Source of the DNA: a virus | Reading direction: 5' to 3' (one strand) | Virus record (IMG/VR): IMGVR_UViG_3300002140_000267 | Location: 1 to 25,000 of that record | DNA: 25,000 nt | Shown here: positions 5,588 through 23,007 of the stretch, piece by piece | How positions within the stretch are numbered: position 1 is the first letter of the stretch | How the letters are laid out: each line of letters starts with the position of its first letter | The notes under the pieces: model-generated | The model's input: only the letters and a program-made list of their open reading frames with translations | What the model was told of the DNA's origin: nothing | Database searches by the model: none | Made by a program: the position numbers and the translations under genes

Positions 5588-5617
5588 AAAAATAGACCCA
5601 CCCGGGTCTATTTTTTT
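5588..5617 (+). terminator. Rho-independent terminator closing the late block
   Basis: AAAAATAGACCC pairs with GGGTCTATTTTT as a perfect 12-bp stem around a 4-base loop (ACCC), followed by two more T residues. It begins 15 bases after the stop of the preceding gene. The A/T flanks make it potentially bidirectional. Confidence 0.9.
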
Positions 5618-5673: not shown

Positions 5674-5823
5674 ATGAAGCCCCAAGATACGTGCAAATTA
5701 GTCTTGACAATTATATTAATAATTGTTATAATATATGGAGTAATGTTTTCCGGCATTCTTCCACCAGGTGACCAAGACAAGCCGCCGGGATATACATTGC
5801 TTCAATTTGGAGGTAGGTTTTAA
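5674..5823 (+). CDS. Small single-pass membrane peptide, 49 aa
   Basis: An ORF of 49 codons starting MKPQDTCK, then one strongly hydrophobic helix (LVLTIILIIVIIYGVMF, about 9-25) and a short polar Pro/Gly-rich tail ending LLQFGGRF. The stop overlaps the next start as TAATG, and the end of the gene (GGAGG, 5811-5815) supplies the ribosome site for that gene, which argues for translation. The ribosome site of the peptide itself is weak. A perfect sigma-70 promoter lies inside the helix-coding bases, so part of the AT-rich hydrophobic stretch may reflect promoter constraint. The role is unknown; single-helix phage peptides often act at the host inner membrane. Confidence 0.5.
   Translation: MKPQDTCKLVLTIILIIVIIYGVMFSGILPPGDQDKPPGYTLLQFGGRF
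5704..5732 (+). promoter_or_regulatory. Consensus sigma-70 early promoter for the PP-loop operon
   Basis: TTGACA (5704-5709), a 17-bp spacer, and TATAAT (5727-5732): a 12-of-12 match to the bacterial housekeeping consensus. It lies inside the 49-residue ORF, about 90 bases before gene A1, and just after a terminator. It should be read by unmodified host RNA polymerase early in infection. Confidence 0.85.
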
Positions 5824-6566
5824 TGCCAAAATTTGGTTTGTTATCGCAACGCCACAATACATTTGTGCTAGTAGGCGACGACTATAGTGCAATGAAGACT
5901 GTGCAATTTTGTCTAACCGTTCAGTTAACTACTTTGTGTGTAGACTTTAGTCTGATTGATAAAAAATCCGACATTGAAATCAATACAGAAAATAAATTAG
6001 ATTTTGCAGGCAGCTTTCGTCTACATAAATTTTTAGATTTTGATGCTAGCCCAATTACCATTAAGCACGACTATGCATACTCACTGCGTCCTGATTACGG
6101 TCTAGGCCCAGCTGACTTTAGTGCTAGCCCGGACCTAATTGTAAATATCCAAACAATGTACGACTTTTTTAGCCGATTTAATAGATTACTAGCAATTGCA
6201 GAACAAAATAAAAAGAATGCAATAAAACAGAGGTTAAATGGCATTACAGAATTTGAAAACTATATTAAAGTATTAACAGGGCCTGATGCATTTGTTGATG
6301 AGGCCGTTAGGACTGAGCGTAATGAGTTACATAATACTCAAGATTCAACTGCGTTAATTAAAAAGAGTTTGTATACATTCTTTAGCACAACTGATATTAA
6401 ATCAATCGGACGTAGTAAGTTAGTAGCATTATTAAAGAACGAAATTAACACAATCCATGCACTCTTTGGCGGTCCAGGTGCAACTGCATATTTAAAATCA
6501 ATTATGATAGCGGCGCTATCGGAGAACCTTACCAATGAATGGCTTAGAAGACTACCTGCACAATAA
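5823..6566 (+). CDS. Module gene A1: unknown partner of a PP-loop ATPase
   Basis: 247 residues, with ATG in a TAATG overlap and a GGAGG ribosome site. The N-terminus (MPKFGLLSQRHNTFVLVGDD, then YSAMKTVQFCLTVQL) aligns with that of the gene at 7737-8420 (YALYNPRSNRFVIADRSYEM, then LKSIQFVLTHKI): a hydrophobic strand pair followed by a conserved K(T/S)(V/I)QF helix. The rest is mostly helical with no cysteine cluster, nucleotide motif or membrane segment. Like its paralogue, it is immediately followed by, and overlaps, a PP-loop ATPase gene, so the two proteins probably act together. It may bring the substrate or carrier to the ATPase. I do not recognise a named family. Confidence 0.8.
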   Translation: MPKFGLLSQRHNTFVLVGDDYSAMKTVQFCLTVQLTTLCVDFSLIDKKSDIEINTENKLDFAGSFRLHKFLDFDASPITIKHDYAYSLRPDYGLGPADFSASPDLIVNIQTMYDFFSRFNRLLAIAEQNKKNAIKQRLNGITEFENYIKVLTGPDAFVDEAVRTERNELHNTQDSTALIKKSLYTFFSTTDIKSIGRSKLVALLKNEINTIHALFGGPGATAYLKSIMIAALSENLTNEWLRRLPAQ

Positions 6567-7740
6567 AACTGCAACTGAGTTACAAAGTTCCAGACTTGTA
6601 GCGGCAGACTACTTTACTAACTTAACTGCTTACAAGAATCCTAATGCAAACCATTGGACTCAAATGAATCGATTGTTAATCGGTGTAAGTGATTGGCGCA
6701 GTAGACTGGGTGAATTTAAAAACCCCTGGGGGGCTAGTTGCAAGTCTGAATACTTGCCGCCTGCTTTTACCTTTACTAATTTATCGTTTAGCGATGTTGC
6801 AGACCAACGTGCAATCGAACTGTTTAGTATTGCCAAGGCTACTAATCGACGGATACTTATTTTATGGTCCGGCGGAATTGACAGCACTGCGGTCTTAAGT
6901 AGCTTTATTAAAAATCTAGAACCTGCTGACAGAGACATTTTAACTATAACATTAAGCTCTAGAAGCATATTAGAAAATAGTCATTTTTACGTTAACCATA
7001 TCAGTAATAAACTCGATTGCTTGCACTATTCAAATTTTGATCTTACACCTGAGTTGCTTAAAAAATATATTGTGATACACGGCGACCCAGGCGATTGTTT
7101 ACAAGGCCCTAGTATACCGGCGTATGCTAAATTTATACAACAAGGAACACATAAGGATCCTTGGCGTAATCATATTAGCGGAATCATTGATTCAGTCCAG
7201 CCGCACCCAAGTCATCCTCATTATTCTGAAGGGTTTGGCAAATGGTTTGTTAACGCAGTAAGTGCTAATTTAGAAGAGATTAATCCTGAAAATGTAATTA
7301 CTGTAGCTGATTGGTGGTGGTGGACTTACTACAACTTTAAGTGGGAGTTTAGTTGCCAGCGACCTTTTTTCTTTAGTAGGTCAGACTTTAATACATCGTT
7401 CACTAAAGAAGAACTAGTAGATTATGCAACTAATACCTACTTTAATTCACCAAATTGGCAACAGTGGAGCTACAGTAATTTGCAAACTCTATTGCCAGCA
7501 GGCACAGGGTGGGATGTACGAAAGATGCACAAACATGATGCACGTAGCTATATATTTGAGTTAGATCGCAATGATCTTTACTTCGAAACTAAAGTAAAAA
7601 CGCCCGGTGCTCCGGCTAATGTATTAGACAGACAGTCTCGAGTACAACCCGTATACTTTACTGATAGTTGGCAAGGACGCAATTTGTCTGACCCAGGTGT
7701 ACGCGAAAGTGTTGTACAGTTATTAGAGGATTTCAATTGA
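6535..7740 (+). CDS. Module gene B1: asparagine-synthetase-like PP-loop ATPase
   Basis: 401 residues. The PP-loop LWSGGIDSTAV (SGGIDS at 112-117) binds ATP and drives AMP transfer to a substrate carbonyl in the N-type ATP pyrophosphatase family. HGDPGDC (182-188) sits where asparagine synthetases have their GEGxDE-like acidic loop. A striking ADWWWWTYYNFKWEFSCQRP segment follows (258-277). No glutaminase domain is present, so if it forms an amide or amidine the nitrogen must come from elsewhere. QueC and TtcA/MnmA cysteine signatures are absent. The ATG has GGAG 10 bases upstream and overlaps the end of A1 by 32 bases. The fold is confident; substrate unknown. Confidence 0.85.
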   Translation: MNGLEDYLHNKTATELQSSRLVAADYFTNLTAYKNPNANHWTQMNRLLIGVSDWRSRLGEFKNPWGASCKSEYLPPAFTFTNLSFSDVADQRAIELFSIAKATNRRILILWSGGIDSTAVLSSFIKNLEPADRDILTITLSSRSILENSHFYVNHISNKLDCLHYSNFDLTPELLKKYIVIHGDPGDCLQGPSIPAYAKFIQQGTHKDPWRNHISGIIDSVQPHPSHPHYSEGFGKWFVNAVSANLEEINPENVITVADWWWWTYYNFKWEFSCQRPFFFSRSDFNTSFTKEELVDYATNTYFNSPNWQQWSYSNLQTLLPAGTGWDVRKMHKHDARSYIFELDRNDLYFETKVKTPGAPANVLDRQSRVQPVYFTDSWQGRNLSDPGVRESVVQLLEDFN

Positions 7741-8420
7741 AAGAATTATATGCATTATATAATCCGCGATCAAACAGATTTGTAATCGCGGATAGAAGTT
7801 ACGAAATGCTTAAAAGCATTCAGTTCGTATTAACACACAAGATACTGTTGTACTGTGTGCGAGTAAGCGACATTGAAAATTATCGCGAAGGTATTCTTGA
7901 TCGCGGTCGATTAATAAACATCGGATTAGCTGATTCAAACCGAATCAACATAGCGGTCGATATTCACCCAAAAAGCGAACCGTACATTCGCCTTATACCA
8001 AACACTGACCCAATTGATTCATACCACACGCATTTAGTTGATGTTGTTAGTTGTTTTCATCAGTTTATCAAAGTGTTTAATAAAGAGTATGGATATTTCC
8101 AAGATACTATGCGTACAAAGAGTCGCAATCAAAAAATGCATCTTGAACAATTAGCTGAGTTTTCTAAATTAGTAATGCCCGACGATCAGGCATTACTAGA
8201 TCTTATTAAATGGGAAACCGATTATAAGTTTAGTATAATGAAATATTTGCGTTCATACAAAGGCGAAGTTTTTCAAATGCTATACAACAATATTGACATT
8301 GAACAAAGTGTTGATGATATTAGACAGCAAATTGGAGTTGAGTTTAATAAGATTCCAATTAAATGTCATTTGCAACGGTATATACATCCTAAGATTTCGG
8401 AGTGGCTAAATGTCAATTGA
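7737..8420 (+). CDS. Module gene A2: paralogue of A1
   Basis: 227 residues, with a TTG start overlapping the stop of B1 (TTGA). No in-frame ATG occurs before residue 24, and the N-terminal alignment with A1 begins at once, so TTG is the likely start. Shared features with A1 are the N-terminal strand pair, the LKSIQF helix and overall length. The two are clearly diverged, most of the length showing only weak similarity. The C-terminal half is helical and charged. No catalytic motif is visible. It overlaps B2 by 11 bases, repeating the A-then-B order. Confidence 0.8.
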   Translation: MKELYALYNPRSNRFVIADRSYEMLKSIQFVLTHKILLYCVRVSDIENYREGILDRGRLINIGLADSNRINIAVDIHPKSEPYIRLIPNTDPIDSYHTHLVDVVSCFHQFIKVFNKEYGYFQDTMRTKSRNQKMHLEQLAEFSKLVMPDDQALLDLIKWETDYKFSIMKYLRSYKGEVFQMLYNNIDIEQSVDDIRQQIGVEFNKIPIKCHLQRYIHPKISEWLNVN

Positions 8421-9591
8421 AAAACACATTAATCAAATAAAACACGGTAACATGGTCGATAACCAGTTAATCGAATACCTTGACATTAAGAACCCAGTGG
8501 GACAACACTGGCAGAGGTACAGTAAATTAAACATTGGAGTTAAAGATGTAAGGCCTCGTTCTGGAACTTTTACTACCCCGTGGGACAGTCCGAACGATAA
8601 TGCTATATGGGGTATGCCCAGTCTACGTTATATACCAGACTCACTCGACGATATATTAGACGAACGTGCGCTAGAGTTATTTAAAATTGCTAGCGAAACT
8701 AATCGCGAAATTTATATCATGTGGTCTGGTGGTATCGACAGTTCCGGCGTGCTAGTTAGCTTTATTAAGAATTTAAGCGAAGCAGATAGAAAGATATTAA
8801 CTGTAGTGTTGAACACTGATAGTCTATTAGAAAATATGGACTTCTATCAGCGGCACATTAGTGGCAAGTTAAAAATTGTACATATCAATGATATTGATGT
8901 TACCAACGAGTTCTTGGATAAAGTTATGCTATTACACGGTGATCCCGGCGATTGCATATACGGACCTAGCATCGGAGCATTTGCACACCTAATTCCCGAT
9001 GGAAGACATATGTTGCCTGCTAACGAGAATCGTGATCTTATTAAAGTATTCTACGATAAGCAAACTAATCCGTGGAGCCACCCAGACTTTAGCAAATGGT
9101 ATGTTGACAAAGTAGCTGATAACTTCGCAGAAGCAAATTTAGAAAATGCATACTCCATTGCTGATTACTGGTGGTGGCATTACTTTAATTTAAAGTACCA
9201 GTTTTCTATGCAACGTCCGTTGCAACACGCTGTTGCAGACTACAAGAAAGGTATTACACAGGATCGTTACGATCGATTCATGAGTGAGGTATTCTTCCAT
9301 AGTGAGCGATTCCAGTTCTGGAGTTATAGCAATTTACAAACATTCTATGCTAAGATTGATCAAGGTGTAACTGGTACAAAATGGCAGGCACGTGAGTATT
9401 TGTATAAGTTCGATAACAATGCACGTTATTATAACCACAAAGTTAAAATAGCAAGTACTGCAACTGACCGAGACCGTCGTACCGTTGAAATTAGTCCATT
9501 TTACTTTGACAATAACAATGTTGGACACTTTCCGTGGGAACCAAATGTAACTGAAGCTGTTACCTACTATTTGGAAAATTATAAGGGTTGA
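8410..9591 (+). CDS. Module gene B2: asparagine-synthetase-like PP-loop ATPase, paralogue of B1
   Basis: 393 residues. It shares with B1 the N-terminal region (NPVGQHWQRYSKLNIGV against NPNANHWTQMNRLLIGV), the PP-loop MWSGGIDSSGV (SGGIDS 106-111), a following FIKNL(S/E)xADRxILT stretch, LLHGDPGDC (174-182), the ADYWWWHYFNLKYQFSMQRP segment and WSYSNLQT. Both copies keep the ATP-binding residues, so neither looks dead. The charged linker after GPSIGAFAHLIPDG and the C-terminal third differ most and may set substrate choice. It is the last gene of the overlapping four-gene operon; the sigma-70 promoter of the next operon overlaps its last codons. Confidence 0.85.
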   Translation: MSIEKHINQIKHGNMVDNQLIEYLDIKNPVGQHWQRYSKLNIGVKDVRPRSGTFTTPWDSPNDNAIWGMPSLRYIPDSLDDILDERALELFKIASETNREIYIMWSGGIDSSGVLVSFIKNLSEADRKILTVVLNTDSLLENMDFYQRHISGKLKIVHINDIDVTNEFLDKVMLLHGDPGDCIYGPSIGAFAHLIPDGRHMLPANENRDLIKVFYDKQTNPWSHPDFSKWYVDKVADNFAEANLENAYSIADYWWWHYFNLKYQFSMQRPLQHAVADYKKGITQDRYDRFMSEVFFHSERFQFWSYSNLQTFYAKIDQGVTGTKWQAREYLYKFDNNARYYNHKVKIASTATDRDRRTVEISPFYFDNNNVGHFPWEPNVTEAVTYYLENYKG

Positions 9592-13832: not shown

Positions 13833-14552
13833 ATGCGCGACTATCTATTAGACATCGTTCAACACACGTACGGTCTTGGTAACATTGATTTGATTAAGAT
13901 TACCGGAGACGAAAATGGCACAACTATTAACTGTATTAGCGAAGACCGTAGTGTTATCGTTGAAGGCAAGTTTAAAGGTCCCGTTGCTGATTTTGTAGGC
14001 ACATTCGGTATGCCTAACTTAAGCAAGCTAAACACTATTTTAAATCTTCCAGTATATAAAGAAAATGCTAAAATTGATGTTTCACGAGACGGAGAAGCAC
14101 CAACTAACATCCACTTTGAAAACAAAGAAGGCGACTTTAAAAACGACTATCGTTTCATGAAAGCCGATGTAGTTACTGCTATTCTTAAGAATTTTAAATT
14201 TAAAGCAGTTAACTGGAACATTGATATTGTTCCTTCAGTAATTGGTATTCAACGTTTAAAATTCCAAAGCCAGGCACACAACGATGAAACCACGTTTAGT
14301 GCTAAGACTGACGGATCCGACCTCAAATTCTTCTTCGGCAACCCAAGTAGCCACAGCGGTGAATTTGTATTCGAAAGCGGAGTAAGTGGTAAACTAACTA
14401 AAGCCTGGAGTTGGCCAGTTACAGCTATCACTAACATTCTGAGCCTAACAGGAGATAAGACTCTTAAAATCAGCGATGAAGGTGCTACTATGATTACCGT
14501 TGACAGCGGGTTAATTGAGTACAACTACATTTTGCCTGCACAAACTAAGTAA
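13833..14552 (+). CDS. 45: T4-type DNA polymerase sliding clamp (gp45)
   Basis: 239 residues against 228 for T4 gp45. The strand-rich sequence shows the usual phage clamp pattern: an N-terminal helix, ENGTTINCISEDRSVIVEGK, a region PNLSKLNTILNLP, the NDYRFMKADVV segment, and a C-terminal strand series ending ISDEGATMITVDSGLIEYNY. Three copies form the ring that holds gp43 on DNA and, in T4, also activates late transcription from TAAATA promoters, which are plentiful here. It has its own consensus promoter and heads an operon that runs into radical SAM, sulfotransferase and DpdA genes. Placement beside gp43 and the similarity together make the call firm. Confidence 0.9.
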   Translation: MRDYLLDIVQHTYGLGNIDLIKITGDENGTTINCISEDRSVIVEGKFKGPVADFVGTFGMPNLSKLNTILNLPVYKENAKIDVSRDGEAPTNIHFENKEGDFKNDYRFMKADVVTAILKNFKFKAVNWNIDIVPSVIGIQRLKFQSQAHNDETTFSAKTDGSDLKFFFGNPSSHSGEFVFESGVSGKLTKAWSWPVTAITNILSLTGDKTLKISDEGATMITVDSGLIEYNYILPAQTK

Positions 14553-14559
14553 TCTTAGA

Positions 14560-15573
14560 ATGCTATCGCCTGACAACATAACTCAGATTCTGGCTTGGCA
14601 TCCGAATCCTCGTGGCCAAGATTGGTCTGGCACTATAACAAATCATTGCGATAGCCCGTTTACTGTTCTGACTGTAGACTTATCAGGTAATTGTTTTCTA
14701 TGCAAGTGCGAAGCGCATTTACCAATAAGCGTGGGCAATATATTAGACTTCGCTGACTTAAACGAAGTTTGGAATAACTCAACTGCAATTGAGCTACAGA
14801 AAACAATTACTGATCGCACATACAAATATTGCGCGGTCGAACTCTGCGGTATTTTAGATCAAGATCTAAAATCGTCCTCTTACTATTTGTCTATTAACAT
14901 AGATGAAAGTTGCAACTTAGCATGTCCGTCATGCCGGCGTGAACAGATATCTCATAGCAATGGTGAGGTGTTCGATCAGAAATCGGCCATGGTCTTACAC
15001 TTAGTTAATTTAATTAACCAATTTGACAAGCCGTTGCACTTAACTATGAGCGGAAACGGAGACCCATTGGCTAGTTTGATTATGCGTCCGCTAGTGCTTA
15101 ATTGGGAACCTAAAAGTAATCAAACAATTAAATTGCTTACCAATGGTTTACTAATTAAGAAACTGTTGCCCAACAGTCCGATACTTCATAACATAAGTGA
15201 ATTTCAAATTAGTGTGGATGCCGGAACTCAAGAAGTATACGAAGTAGTTAGACGTCCAGGCAAGTTTAGTATATTGCAAGATAACCTACAGTGGCTAGCA
15301 GATAACCGTCCTGCTCATTCTACTGTTAGACTAATGTTTTGCCTAAGTAAAAGCAATCATACCGATATACTAAACTTTGCTAACTTATGTAGTAAATTTG
15401 GATTTCTGGGAGAAATTACTAAAGTAGAAGACTGGGGCACGTTTGATAATTTCAGCGAACAGGATATTATGGCAACAACTGGGCCAGAATATACACTTGC
15501 ACTAGACCAACTGAGAATTGTAAGCACCATGTCGCACATTTCAATTGGGTCGTTTATAAAGAGGTTGTTATAA
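14560..15573 (+). CDS. Radical SAM enzyme with unusual N-terminal cysteine-rich region
   Basis: 337 residues from ATG 14560, seven bases after the clamp stop; an upstream in-frame TTG at 14515 would overlap the clamp gene and is less likely. The radical SAM core has the 4Fe-4S motif CNLACPSC (C118, C122, C125), MSGNGDPL (163-170) in place of the SAM-binding GGEP-type motif, and ISVDAGTQEVYE (217-228). Before the core, residues 30-96 hold six cysteines (30, 45, 48, 50, 91, 96) plus GNILDFADLNEVWNN, a layout like a SPASM/twitch auxiliary cluster domain, which normally follows the core. The substrate is unknown. It shares an operon with sulfotransferase and DpdA genes. Confidence 0.88.
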   Translation: MLSPDNITQILAWHPNPRGQDWSGTITNHCDSPFTVLTVDLSGNCFLCKCEAHLPISVGNILDFADLNEVWNNSTAIELQKTITDRTYKYCAVELCGILDQDLKSSSYYLSINIDESCNLACPSCRREQISHSNGEVFDQKSAMVLHLVNLINQFDKPLHLTMSGNGDPLASLIMRPLVLNWEPKSNQTIKLLTNGLLIKKLLPNSPILHNISEFQISVDAGTQEVYEVVRRPGKFSILQDNLQWLADNRPAHSTVRLMFCLSKSNHTDILNFANLCSKFGFLGEITKVEDWGTFDNFSEQDIMATTGPEYTLALDQLRIVSTMSHISIGSFIKRLL

Positions 15574-15575
15574 TT

Positions 15576-16403
15576 ATGCTAGATTTTAAAAGATATTCTA
15601 ATAATACTCGCGACATACTAGACAATTGTCGTAACAACATTATAGACGAGACCCGGCGAGTAGTCAGAAGACCAGAACGTCAATGGTTAATGAAAGGGCA
15701 CGATATTAATGAATGTTTTGTGGATCCAGGTCGTACTTGTACCTACGTTAACATCCCCAAAAATGCCAGCACTAGTGTAAAAAATGCATTAGGCGGAAGG
15801 CTTGGATGGCAAGTACATAACATTAACAATATAGGGTCGTTAGCTGAAAAACACCATTTAGTCTTATTAAGAGATCCAGCAACTAGGTGGATCAGTGGAA
15901 TCTGCGAATACTTAACCATGTATCACACTGATATTATTAGCAGGATAGGTGATACCAGATTTACACACGGTATGAATGGGCTGTATGGTCAGGAATTAGC
16001 ATTGTCTATAATTTTTGATCGTTTTGTGTTTGACGATCATACTGATAATCAAACAAGTTTCTTAAACGGGTACAATGTAGATCAATGCCATTTTATTTTT
16101 ATTGATAAGCACCTGGAAACTAATCTAAATACTTTTTTAAACATGTACGGCTTTCCAGAAGTTACACTAGAACACGAAAATGTTGCTAATCTAAATAGTG
16201 ATAGTAACGGCGACGGGGAAGGACGGGCACGAAGCAATTTAATGAAGGCTCAACTGCATGCAGTTATACTACACATGCTAGAAAACTCTATAATTTTAAA
16301 AGAACGGCTATTAGAGTACTTATGGGAAGATATTTCCTTTATGCAGTCTATACAATTCGCAAATCAACAAGTAGCATCAGAAGCATTATACAAATATGGA
16401 TAA
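15576..16403 (+). CDS. Sulfotransferase-like protein
   Basis: 275 residues. YVNIPKNASTSVKNAL (58-71) matches the 5'-phosphosulfate loop of PAPS-dependent sulfotransferases, and LVLLRDPATRWISG (95-108) matches the 3'-phosphate binding motif with its conserved Arg and Ser. The predicted reaction moves a sulfuryl group from PAPS to a hydroxyl or amine. The remaining helical part fits the sulfotransferase fold, and the C-terminus is less conserved. It starts two bases after the radical SAM stop and overlaps dpdA by 8 bases, so all three are made together. No signal peptide or anchor is seen, so the acceptor is probably cytoplasmic: DNA base, sugar or protein. Confidence 0.78.
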   Translation: MLDFKRYSNNTRDILDNCRNNIIDETRRVVRRPERQWLMKGHDINECFVDPGRTCTYVNIPKNASTSVKNALGGRLGWQVHNINNIGSLAEKHHLVLLRDPATRWISGICEYLTMYHTDIISRIGDTRFTHGMNGLYGQELALSIIFDRFVFDDHTDNQTSFLNGYNVDQCHFIFIDKHLETNLNTFLNMYGFPEVTLEHENVANLNSDSNGDGEGRARSNLMKAQLHAVILHMLENSIILKERLLEYLWEDISFMQSIQFANQQVASEALYKYG

Positions 16404-17931
16404 CTTAACAGAAAAACAAAAAGACTACGCAGTATTTTTGCCAGCCATCAGCGGGTTCTATGCTACATTCGTAGGCAAGCAACGTAACGAAGAATACGTA
16501 GACCCATCTAGATTTCCGCAAGGGTTAGTTGATATGGAACAAATGAATTGGCTTAATAGTCAAAAAGGGCTATTTCCATATCGGTGGAGTCTATATTCCG
16601 GCGGACATGCTAATCTAGATCTCAATAAAGAAGATTGGTCCGAGGACATGGTTCGTAATCGTGCAGAGGATACGTTTATGTTAGGCGACTCGGGCGGTTT
16701 CCAGATTGCCAAAGGCTTGTGGGAAGGCGATTGGAAGGCTAATTCAGGGTGCCCTAAAGCACAAAAGAAACGCAGTCAAATATTGACATGGTTAGATAAC
16801 ATTGCCGACTATGGCATGATTCTTGATATTCCAACTTGGGTTATACACGACAAAAACGCCAGTGACAAGTGTGGGATCAAAACATTGCAAGAAGCAGTTG
16901 ACGCCACCAAGTACAACAACGAATACTTTATGGCTAACCGCAAAGGTAAAAAGAATGGCGGTGCCAAGTACTTAAACGTGTTACAAGGCGACAATCATTC
17001 AAGTGCCGAAGCATGGTACCAGGAAATGAAATCATTTTGTGATCCTGCTGTATACCCAGACACGCACTTCGATGGTTGGTCAATGGGCGGTCAGAACATG
17101 TGTGATGTACACTTGGTACTCAAGCGTTTGGTTGCATTGCGCTACGATAATCTGTTGCAAGAAGGTGTTCATGACTGGATGCACTTCCTAGGAACAAGTA
17201 AGTTGGAATGGGCAGTACTACTCACCGTGATCCAAAGAGCAATACGCAAGTATGTAAATCCTGCGTTTACTATCTCTTTTGATTGTGCTAGCCCATTCCT
17301 TGCCACTGCAAACGGACAAGTGTATTTTGAAAATGCGTTCCCACAAGATGGTAAGTGGTCATATAGGATGGCTCCAAGTGCAGACGACAAGAAGTATGCA
17401 CTAGATACACGCAAGTGGGCAGACGGTGTTGTTGCTGATGGCATTTACCCACGTTGGGAAGACAGCCCTATTAGCGATATGTTAACAATGAAAGACATCT
17501 GTATCTACAAACCGGGTGTACTGAAAGCCGGAGTTGCTGATACTCTTGAAAATAGGTTAATTGAAGAAAACTACGACGTAATGCCAGACTTAAACAAGAA
17601 CGGTAAGTGGGGCAAAACTTCCTGGGATAGTTTTAGTTACGCATTGCTAATGGGCCATAATGTATGGATGCACTTAACCGCTGTGCAAGAAGCCAATCGA
17701 CGATTCGATGCAGGCGAGCATCCTGCAATGATGCGATACAGTAATGGCGACTTTGCATTTTTTGAAGATATTGTAGAAACTATCTTTGCCGCACCTACTA
17801 AAGAAGAAAGTCTAGCAATCATTGAACAATATGATGACTACTGGATGGACATTATTGGTACTCGCGGATTCAAAGGTAAGAAAACTAAAAACGCGAACAC
17901 TATGTTCAATTCACTTTTTGAGGAAGCATAA
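16396..17931 (+). CDS. dpdA: DpdA-like DNA 7-deazaguanine transglycosylase (TGT family)
   Basis: 511 residues with the tRNA-guanine transglycosylase barrel motifs in order: MLGDSGGFQ (95-103, general acid/base D98), LDIPTWV (143-149), NVLQGDN (194-200), DGWSMGGQN (226-234), HFLGTSKLEW (263-272) and ISFDCASP (293-300, nucleophile D296). A C-terminal GHNVWMHLTAVQEANRR helix matches the TGT helix that carries the zinc His. The CxCxxC of classical TGT is missing, leaving one Cys (DICIYKPG). Length and motif changes fit DpdA, the family that swaps guanine in DNA for a 7-deazaguanine base. folE and a QueD-like gene in the window support this. A tRNA substrate cannot be excluded. Confidence 0.85.
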   Translation: MDNLTEKQKDYAVFLPAISGFYATFVGKQRNEEYVDPSRFPQGLVDMEQMNWLNSQKGLFPYRWSLYSGGHANLDLNKEDWSEDMVRNRAEDTFMLGDSGGFQIAKGLWEGDWKANSGCPKAQKKRSQILTWLDNIADYGMILDIPTWVIHDKNASDKCGIKTLQEAVDATKYNNEYFMANRKGKKNGGAKYLNVLQGDNHSSAEAWYQEMKSFCDPAVYPDTHFDGWSMGGQNMCDVHLVLKRLVALRYDNLLQEGVHDWMHFLGTSKLEWAVLLTVIQRAIRKYVNPAFTISFDCASPFLATANGQVYFENAFPQDGKWSYRMAPSADDKKYALDTRKWADGVVADGIYPRWEDSPISDMLTMKDICIYKPGVLKAGVADTLENRLIEENYDVMPDLNKNGKWGKTSWDSFSYALLMGHNVWMHLTAVQEANRRFDAGEHPAMMRYSNGDFAFFEDIVETIFAAPTKEESLAIIEQYDDYWMDIIGTRGFKGKKTKNANTMFNSLFEEA

Positions 17932-22320: not shown

Positions 22321-23007
22321 ATGAGTAAAGCACAAGAAATTAAAACAAAACTAGAAAAATATGGCATTCGTCACTGGGCTGGTGATAACATCAGTACAGT
22401 ATTACAAGAAGGCGATAAAGAACAACTTATTGACGAAGCTACATTAGCATTTAACAGTGTACTAGATGCACTAGTAATTGATCGTTACAATGATCCTAAC
22501 AGTCAAGGCACTGCAAGACGTCTTGCTAAAATGTACTTTAACGAAATAATGGCAGGAAGATATGAACCAGCACCAGACGCAACAGCATTTCCAAATGATT
22601 CGGCAGACCGTTACGAAGGCATGCTCGTGGTTCGCAGTGAACTTCGTAGTATGTGTAGTCATCATCACCAACCCGTTACTGGGGTTGCTTATATTGGCAT
22701 TATTGCGGCAGAAAAACTAATCGGCCTTTCGAAGTATACACGTATTGCACAGTGGTGTGCTCGTCGCGGCACACTACAAGAAGAACTTTGTAACGACATT
22801 GCTCGTGAGATTATGAAGGCAACCGACAGTGAAAACGTAGCAGTCTACATTCAAGCAACACATGGTTGTTGTGAAAATCGTGGCATTATGGCGCATAGTT
22901 CGTTAACACAGACTACTGTACTAAAAGGGGCATTTAATACAGACGGCAATACAAAGAAAGAGTTCTTTGACAACATCAAACTACAACAAGAGTTTGCACC
23001 ACGATGA
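22321..23007 (+). CDS. folE: GTP cyclohydrolase I
   Basis: 228 residues, typical length. Zinc ligands match E. coli FolE: C112 and H115 in MCSHHHQPV, and C183 in THGCCENRGI. Other family segments are GVAYIGIIAAEKLIGLSKYT (121-140), RIAQWCARRGTLQEELCNDI (141-160) and VAVYIQATH. The enzyme turns GTP into dihydroneopterin triphosphate, the entry step to both folate and 7-deazaguanine (preQ0) synthesis. A DpdA-like gene and a QueD-like gene in the same window favour the preQ0 route for phage DNA modification. It is transcribed from its own consensus promoter and overlaps the next gene as ATGA. Confidence 0.95.
   Translation: MSKAQEIKTKLEKYGIRHWAGDNISTVLQEGDKEQLIDEATLAFNSVLDALVIDRYNDPNSQGTARRLAKMYFNEIMAGRYEPAPDATAFPNDSADRYEGMLVVRSELRSMCSHHHQPVTGVAYIGIIAAEKLIGLSKYTRIAQWCARRGTLQEELCNDIAREIMKATDSENVAVYIQATHGCCENRGIMAHSSLTQTTVLKGAFNTDGNTKKEFFDNIKLQQEFAPR

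Follow-up and report, generated by a model that had tools for sequence, protein, structure and literature searches.

Duplicated modules of a PP-loop ligase and a conserved partner protein in large uncultured phages, and their link to a signal-less DctP-type protein

Organization of the A1-B1-A2-B2 locus

The window analyzed here is a stretch of 25,000 nucleotides of viral DNA (IMG/VR record IMGVR_UViG_3300002140_000267, positions 1 to 25,000), in which four overlapping genes follow one another in the order A1-B1-A2-B2 (Table 1). Each A gene encodes a predicted protein and is followed by a B gene for a PP-loop ligase. The module points to undescribed small-molecule or protein-modifying chemistry in large uncultured phages; what is new about it is the conserved partner A, together with an unexplained link to a receptor-type protein of the DctP family. 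The initial annotation had described two copies of one gene pair, and both the gene order and the overlaps of 32, 4 and 11 bases are exact in the coordinates. B1 and B2 share 40% identity across 374 aligned columns (E = 1e-95), and SGGIDS, HGDPGDC, a W-rich segment and WSYSNLQT can be found in both of them. The N-terminal pattern attributed to the A proteins is also evident: A1 and A2 align pairwise over only about 57 N-terminal residues (35% identity, E = 4e-7), and both fall inside one single-linkage BLAST cluster of 46 partner proteins. The same four genes are found in virus contig G001 (L001, 170,893 bases).

Table 1. Features of the module and of the region upstream of it, with positions in the window
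Feature	Position	Strand	Description
Intrinsic terminator	5588..5617	+	Upstream of operon; fold z -5.5 versus shuffles; stem kept in L002
Promoter-like TTGACA-17-TATAAT	5704..5732	+	12/12 consensus match; inside small ORF
Small open reading frame (ORF)	5674..5823	+	49 aa; contains a hydrophobic segment; tail PPGDQxxPPGxTL; stop and A1 start overlap in TAATG
A1	5823..6566	+	Predicted protein, 247 aa, without significant family match
B1	6535..7740	+	Asparagine-synthetase-like PP-loop ligase, 401 aa
A2	7737..8420	+	227 aa, TTG start; model pLDDT 93.2; without clear PDB fold match
B2	8410..9591	+	Asparagine-synthetase-like PP-loop ligase, 393 aa; model pLDDT 93.9; matches TsnB9, beta-lactam synthetase and asparagine synthetase folds

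The terminator that had been placed before the module folds far better than its shuffles, and in L002 bases of the stem are changed with the pairing kept, as read by eye from the alignment. It is absent from the output of a terminator scan of the region. The consensus promoter is present as a match, but it is placed within a 49-residue ORF that had been overlooked. The alignment shows a nearby counterpart in L002 (TTGACA-17-TATACT), and promoter-like sites are not enriched in the region (18, against a shuffle mean of 16.4). As for the small ORF, tblastn finds counterparts at the equivalent position in L010 (E = 2e-5), L002 (2e-4), L005 (3e-4) and L009 (2e-3), and the codon differences between its tail and that of L002 are, by eye, mostly synonymous. 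Since four other loci have such matches at this position, the ORF is probably genuine and encodes a small membrane protein as part of the operon.

The B proteins have a known enzyme fold but form a new branch

SGGxDS is kept in all 90 aligned B sequences, as are R50, S106, G107, G108, D110, S111, Q302, W304, K324 and K344, and the 25 conserved positions checked are all identical between B1 and B2. Since the invariant residues are kept and these positions are the same in B1, both copies in the window are probably active adenylating ligases. No cysteine is invariant or nearly so, and CxxCxxC, which holds the zinc-binding cysteines of QueC, occurs in none of the 90 rows.

The reading of B as an asparagine-synthetase-like ligase without a glutaminase domain is borne out by the fold matches and by the B2 model, in which the PP-loop domain starts near residue 79 and is preceded by short helices only. 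The best match to the model is the hydroxyamidotransferase TsnB9 (PDB 7ylz; Foldseek E = 2e-4; Z = 12.1, rmsd 5.0, 268 aligned residues), followed by beta-lactam synthetase (Z = 11.2, rmsd 3.7, 189 aligned) and human asparagine synthetase (Z = 10.8, rmsd 3.5, 192 aligned), the asparagine synthetases ranging from 10.3 to 10.8. It counts against this assignment that B reaches low Foldseek TM-scores (at most 0.33) and that a single match passes E = 0.001. None of the four window proteins has a significant match in Pfam, PHROGs, NCBIfam or PADLOC. For PF00733 the Pfam score was not reached: the window proteins have no match up to E = 1, and 5 of 29 B relatives match with E no higher than 0.1, the lowest being 0.0017. 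B1 also matches DndC (E = 0.002), but over the PP-loop region only, and this identity was rejected. Thus, the libraries searched do not place B in a well-characterized family.

TsnB9 matches most of the length of B, but its chain has 576 residues as compared with 393 in B2; B lacks the N-terminal half, and the identity is 10-14%. Asparagine synthetase B and the beta-lactam and carbapenam synthetases share with B the PP-loop fold and SGGxDS, and HGDPGDC presumably corresponds to their second G-D/E motif. B differs from these synthetases in the missing N-terminal glutaminase-type domain, in the W-rich helix, in a sequence that lies below Pfam detection in the window copies, and in having a separate conserved partner, A. 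PesC, the nitrile synthetase of the nitrilobacillins, is likewise asparagine-synthetase-like and adenylates a carboxylate, but uses glutamine and a precursor peptide (PMC13060819); in the A-B locus the 49-residue ORF is at most a candidate for such a precursor.

A and B occur as a unit that multiplied early

A same-strand ORF of suitable size lies just upstream of 120 of the 140 distinct B ORFs, and 7 of the 20 without one are at contig edges. Three partner clusters hold 97 of these 120 ORFs, namely U1, the A type of the window (46), U2 (14) and U0 (37); 89 of the 97 overlap B, 45 of them by exactly 4 bases. U2 is related to A (hhalign E = 1e-8). A relationship of U0 to A was not established (profile comparison E = 0.011, probability 3.8%).

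The initial annotation proposed that A and B form a unit, which would be contradicted by homologs occurring mostly apart. Among 41 contigs searched with both profiles, a chosen set that is biased for asking whether A occurs without B, A was found in 16, and every A match is beside a B, as judged from coordinates; A was not seen away from B. Distances between A proteins also agree best with those between B proteins when the correct pairs are compared: over 42 pairs, 7 long-branched or distant ones of 49 having been dropped first, the correlation is 0.72 for true pairs, and in 2000 swaps within phages it averaged 0.47 and did not exceed 0.70. These results support the proposal that A and B form a unit. 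An outward search from one A protein reached 2 loci only. Iterated profiles recovered 211 B and 104 A ORFs in 132 loci, overlapping loci included. Three modules are found in L003, L005, L010, L012 and L013, the gene order is A B B A in L015 and L020, and L014 and L018 have B without a detected A.

The tree of B proteins (49 pairs, by a quick method without bootstrap) is divided into three clades, B0, B1 and B2, with supports of 99, 88 and 99. Because each clade holds several of these phages, the tree indicates that the modules multiplied before these phages diverged. The two copies in the window, described earlier as diverged, thus appear to have split long ago with the same conserved residues kept. 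The A tree fits this history less well, since only A2 forms a clade in it (support 90), the A0 and A1 proteins being spread over poorly supported or unresolved forks; early multiplication therefore rests on the B tree, including the B1 clade with its support of 88.

The A proteins and the question of a protein substrate

The A2 model consists of a short beta hairpin with a helix and a long helical hairpin. Searches of the PDB gave no clear match (Foldseek best E = 1.0) and none to a glutaminase-type domain. CHMP3 (Z = 8.0) and YicC (Z = 7.5) were rejected as A folds, since the VIA-align rows span the helical part only and scores at this level are common for helical bundles. In BFVD, A matches A0A6J5LWH7, an unannotated protein of an uncultured phage (E = 3e-6, TM 0.55).

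The closest known architecture is that of QatB-QatC (qatABCD) and CdnD-Cap9 (type IV CBASS), in which, according to PMC13279940, a partner lies beside a PP-loop enzyme that binds it, is conserved with this enzyme as in A-B, and is the substrate or is proposed to be. The main rival explanation is that A is itself the substrate, an amine of which B would link to a small carboxylate, as in Cap9-CdnD and as proposed for QatC-QatB. The similarity in architecture extends to a largely helical protein of unmatched fold beside the PP-loop enzyme; that paper shows a 1:1 complex for QatBC; and both the occurrence of A only beside B in the 41 contigs and a lysine, K26, conserved in at least 90% of the A rows (proteins of the U1 type) would suit a modified protein. 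However, QatC and Cap9 are described there as QueC-family enzymes with a zinc site that act on an N-terminal glycine of the partner, and neither feature was found in A-B: B has no CxxCxxC in the 90 rows, and residue 2 is glycine in only 4 of 46 A rows (predicted starts). In addition, the nearest methionine lies at most 8 residues before the xGL motif in 31 of 44 A rows, which leaves no long tail. On balance, we consider it unlikely that A is the substrate.

A DctP-type protein without signal peptide is linked to A-type modules

A link between A-type modules and a TRAP-type solute-binding protein without signal peptide, overlooked in the initial annotation, is evident from their co-occurrence. 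The phage protein shares the PF03480 domain with the DctP-type proteins (4.9e-43 for one copy) and differs from them in lacking a signal peptide and in being sometimes encoded by two genes. DctP-type proteins usually bind carboxylates. Among 92 distinct DctP ORFs, 83 have an N-terminal motif and 9 do not; in the 83 the nearest methionine is 4-8 residues before the motif, and none has a hydrophobic stretch ahead of it. A PF03480 match was present in all 8 module contigs first tested, one match in G002 being of the exported type and belonging to a TRAP operon that also encodes DctQ and DctM.

The association was examined from three directions. In 29 contigs chosen by their polymerase (part of 80 loci, mostly the longer ones; the B-positive loci on short contigs L223, L224, L227, L277, L278 and L290 lie outside this comparison), the cytoplasmic DctP is present in all 5 B-positive contigs and in 1 of 24 B-negative ones, and in the 10 contigs of at least 100 kb the numbers are 4 of 4 and 1 of 6. 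In these counts G010, with a weak B match of 3.7e-5, was scored negative at the threshold of 1e-5. Conversely, B is present in 19 of 28 contigs chosen by DctP (the longer ones of 80, without G001, G002 and G004). Among 32 contigs chosen by B (about 45 kb or more, without G001, and including the near-copies G002/G037/G039 and G079/G080/G084/G085), DctP is present in 17, which are 17 of the 23 with A or U2 partners and none of the 9 with U0 or other partners, L078 (G073) with its unclustered partner being counted with U0. The two genes are also often neighbors: of 80 DctP loci, 45 (24 of the 42 clusters formed at 90% identity) have a B-related PP-loop gene at most 4 kb from DctP, as compared with 10 of 80 loci around the polymerase, with flanks of up to 5 kb.

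Several observations weigh against a functional tie between DctP and the module. The Fisher values of 5e-5 (29 contigs) and 0.048 (10 contigs) are too small, the contigs being related and many of them near-duplicates. The DctP set was chosen by a profile of signal-less copies and is uninformative on the frequency of exported ones. DctP is missing from 6 of the 23 contigs with A or U2 partners, some of which are fragments, and G011 has DctP with no B match at 1e-5. The window's contig has two DctP genes, both far from A-B, and one of them (L133) is beside tail sheath and tube genes. The numbers of modules and DctP genes are unequal in G002 (3 and 2) and in G009 (2 and 3), which rules out that DctP copy number equals module number.

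The position of some copies raises the possibility that A-B modifies the DctP-like protein itself, which would then be a virion or host-interaction protein. Besides the copy in L133, DctP is flanked by tail tube and portal genes in L188, and in L194 its neighbors are head-tail adaptor and head-closure (connector) genes, as identified with PHROGs profiles; a virion protein needs no signal peptide, and co-occurrence and adjacency with the module would be expected of a target. The neighbors in L134 and L092, however, do not look structural by eye, and DctP is split into N- and C-terminal halves in L015 (8063-9604), L020 (7957-9495), L045 (10722-11684), L052 (9455-10417), L053 (4468-5430) and L058 (4568-5530), with two C halves each in L015 and L020. 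A split DctP does not suit an ordinary exported receptor either. We regard DctP as the target of A-B as rather improbable.

Other transport genes are found in these contigs. Exported TctC-like neighbors form one cluster in 29 of the 80 DctP loci, a name that is weakly supported (3.3e-6 for one member, no match for another), and TctA was detected in 3 of 6 contigs, G001 not among them. In a single run of genes in G002 (L137, 1567-8000), DctQ, DctM and the exported-type DctP are followed by a PP-loop gene (motif by eye), TctA and a weak TctC match; the transporter genes of L137 were confirmed by profile. A tctA gene of undefined role has been noted in phage contigs of SUP05 (PMC4164917). In isolated phages the DctP protein has 8 weak matches (22-28% identical), at least one of them in a bacterial record.

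Proposed function of the A-B modules

We tentatively favor the explanation that A and B constitute a two-protein, ATP-dependent carboxylate ligase that works in one pathway with the cytoplasmic DctP-like protein. B would bind ATP at the PP-loop and convert a carboxylate to an acyl-AMP, and would then pass the acyl group to an amine to give an amide. That B adenylates a carboxylate is very probable from its conserved residues and modeled fold. Because B has no glutaminase domain, the amine could be free ammonia, a co-substrate or a group on a protein that is bound. The consistent pairing makes it fairly probable that A is a dedicated partner that gives each module its own specificity or presents a partner to B. 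With similar confidence we expect that the diverged modules (two here, one or three elsewhere) act on different substrates or acceptors, because they keep the conserved residues intact. It is quite possible, if somewhat more doubtful, that the DctP-like protein binds the substrate or the product of A-B.

A receptor that apparently never leaves the cell is hard to fit to known phage metabolism, and its ligand, which may be the enzyme's substrate or product, provides a concrete handle. A more far-reaching and rather speculative extension, to which we give little credence, is that these phages run an intracellular small-molecule system, in which A-B modules convert carboxylates to amides, and these are bound by TRAP-type receptors that stay in the cytoplasm and are sometimes split. 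If this were true, such an amide and receptor system could serve signaling, host takeover or competition between phages. Among open-licence papers on TRAP, DctP or TctA in connection with phage, or on PP-loop or asparagine synthase proteins in connection with phage or gene clusters, we found no report of this module.

Unlikely alternatives: 7-deazaguanine and sulfur transfer

The initial annotation had considered the modification of a base. The window's contig indeed encodes FolE (window 22321-23007), QueD and a QueE-like radical SAM protein, as well as a protein with DSGGFQ (window 16396-17931), which we take to be the motif of TGT and which has no Pfam or PHROG match. Genes for FolE, QueD and the QueE-like and TGT-like proteins occur across the lineage (L302-L313), and the 6 module contigs tested have no PF06508 QueC. 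B might therefore substitute for QueC in a phage 7-deazaguanine DNA-modification pathway, and a QueC-like PHROG profile does weakly match 24 of 29 B members (best 1e-5), as a PAPS-reductase profile does 19. However, QueD is found in every one of the 10 contigs that were chosen by polymerase and span 100 kb or more, whether they have B (4) or not (6), and inspection of 6-kb surroundings of QueD in the B-negative ones revealed no SGGxDS-type ORF. As QueD thus occurs regardless of A-B, it is unlikely that the module acts in this pathway, and a 7-deazaguanine or QueC role was set aside. The lack of CxxCxxC in B and the finding of B in bacteria as well as in other types of contig argue in the same direction, and in the module contig G069 another PP-loop gene just before QueD (L304, 1707-2546) would make B unneeded there. 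A QueC substitute is thus very unlikely. The lineage itself perhaps has a DNA modification based on 7-carboxy-7-deazaguanine.

It is about equally improbable that B transfers sulfur in the manner of LarE or TtuA and forms no amide. LarE chains are among the fold matches of B (Z about 6.6), and LarE also appears weakly in sequence comparison, but the asparagine synthetase and beta-lactam synthetase folds are clearly better (Z about 10 to 12), and the invariant and nearly invariant columns of B offer no cysteine for such a transfer. Elsewhere in the window (14515-15573) lies a gene for a radical SAM/SPASM protein, the best NCBIfam matches of which are maturases, all below cut-off; it is present in 5 of the 80 polymerase loci, with flanks of up to 5 kb.

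Distribution in viruses and bacteria

The 50,697 records of isolated phages that were searched yielded no relative of B1 or B2. Two more distant B proteins match one isolated phage, Pseudomonas phage Cygsa01 (22% identity). In this phage (L317, 3796-5945) two PP-loop-type genes are annotated as mnmA, and the second is the distant B relative, so that its mnmA annotation is doubtful. Searches of virus contigs gave 26 and 10 relatives, and by profile at least 417 were confirmed among 599 stretches, from which 77 loci were kept. The collection of bacterial and archaeal genomes yielded 22 loci, including candidate-phyla bacteria, Bdellovibrionales, Polynucleobacter and Duganella sacchari; the ORF upstream of B in the last (L124) falls outside all three partner clusters, U0 included. 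One bacterial B had no relative among plasmids. A multi-copy enzyme pair with a partner of unmatched fold thus belongs to a family with at least 417 virus-contig stretches and 22 bacterial loci, yet B1 and B2 are unmatched in the isolated-phage records. In candidate-phyla bacteria, YcaO and nitroreductase genes are found near B pairs (L114, 2736-4942; the same clusters in L112, L113 and L121), and surroundings of the L114 type resemble peptide-modification clusters.

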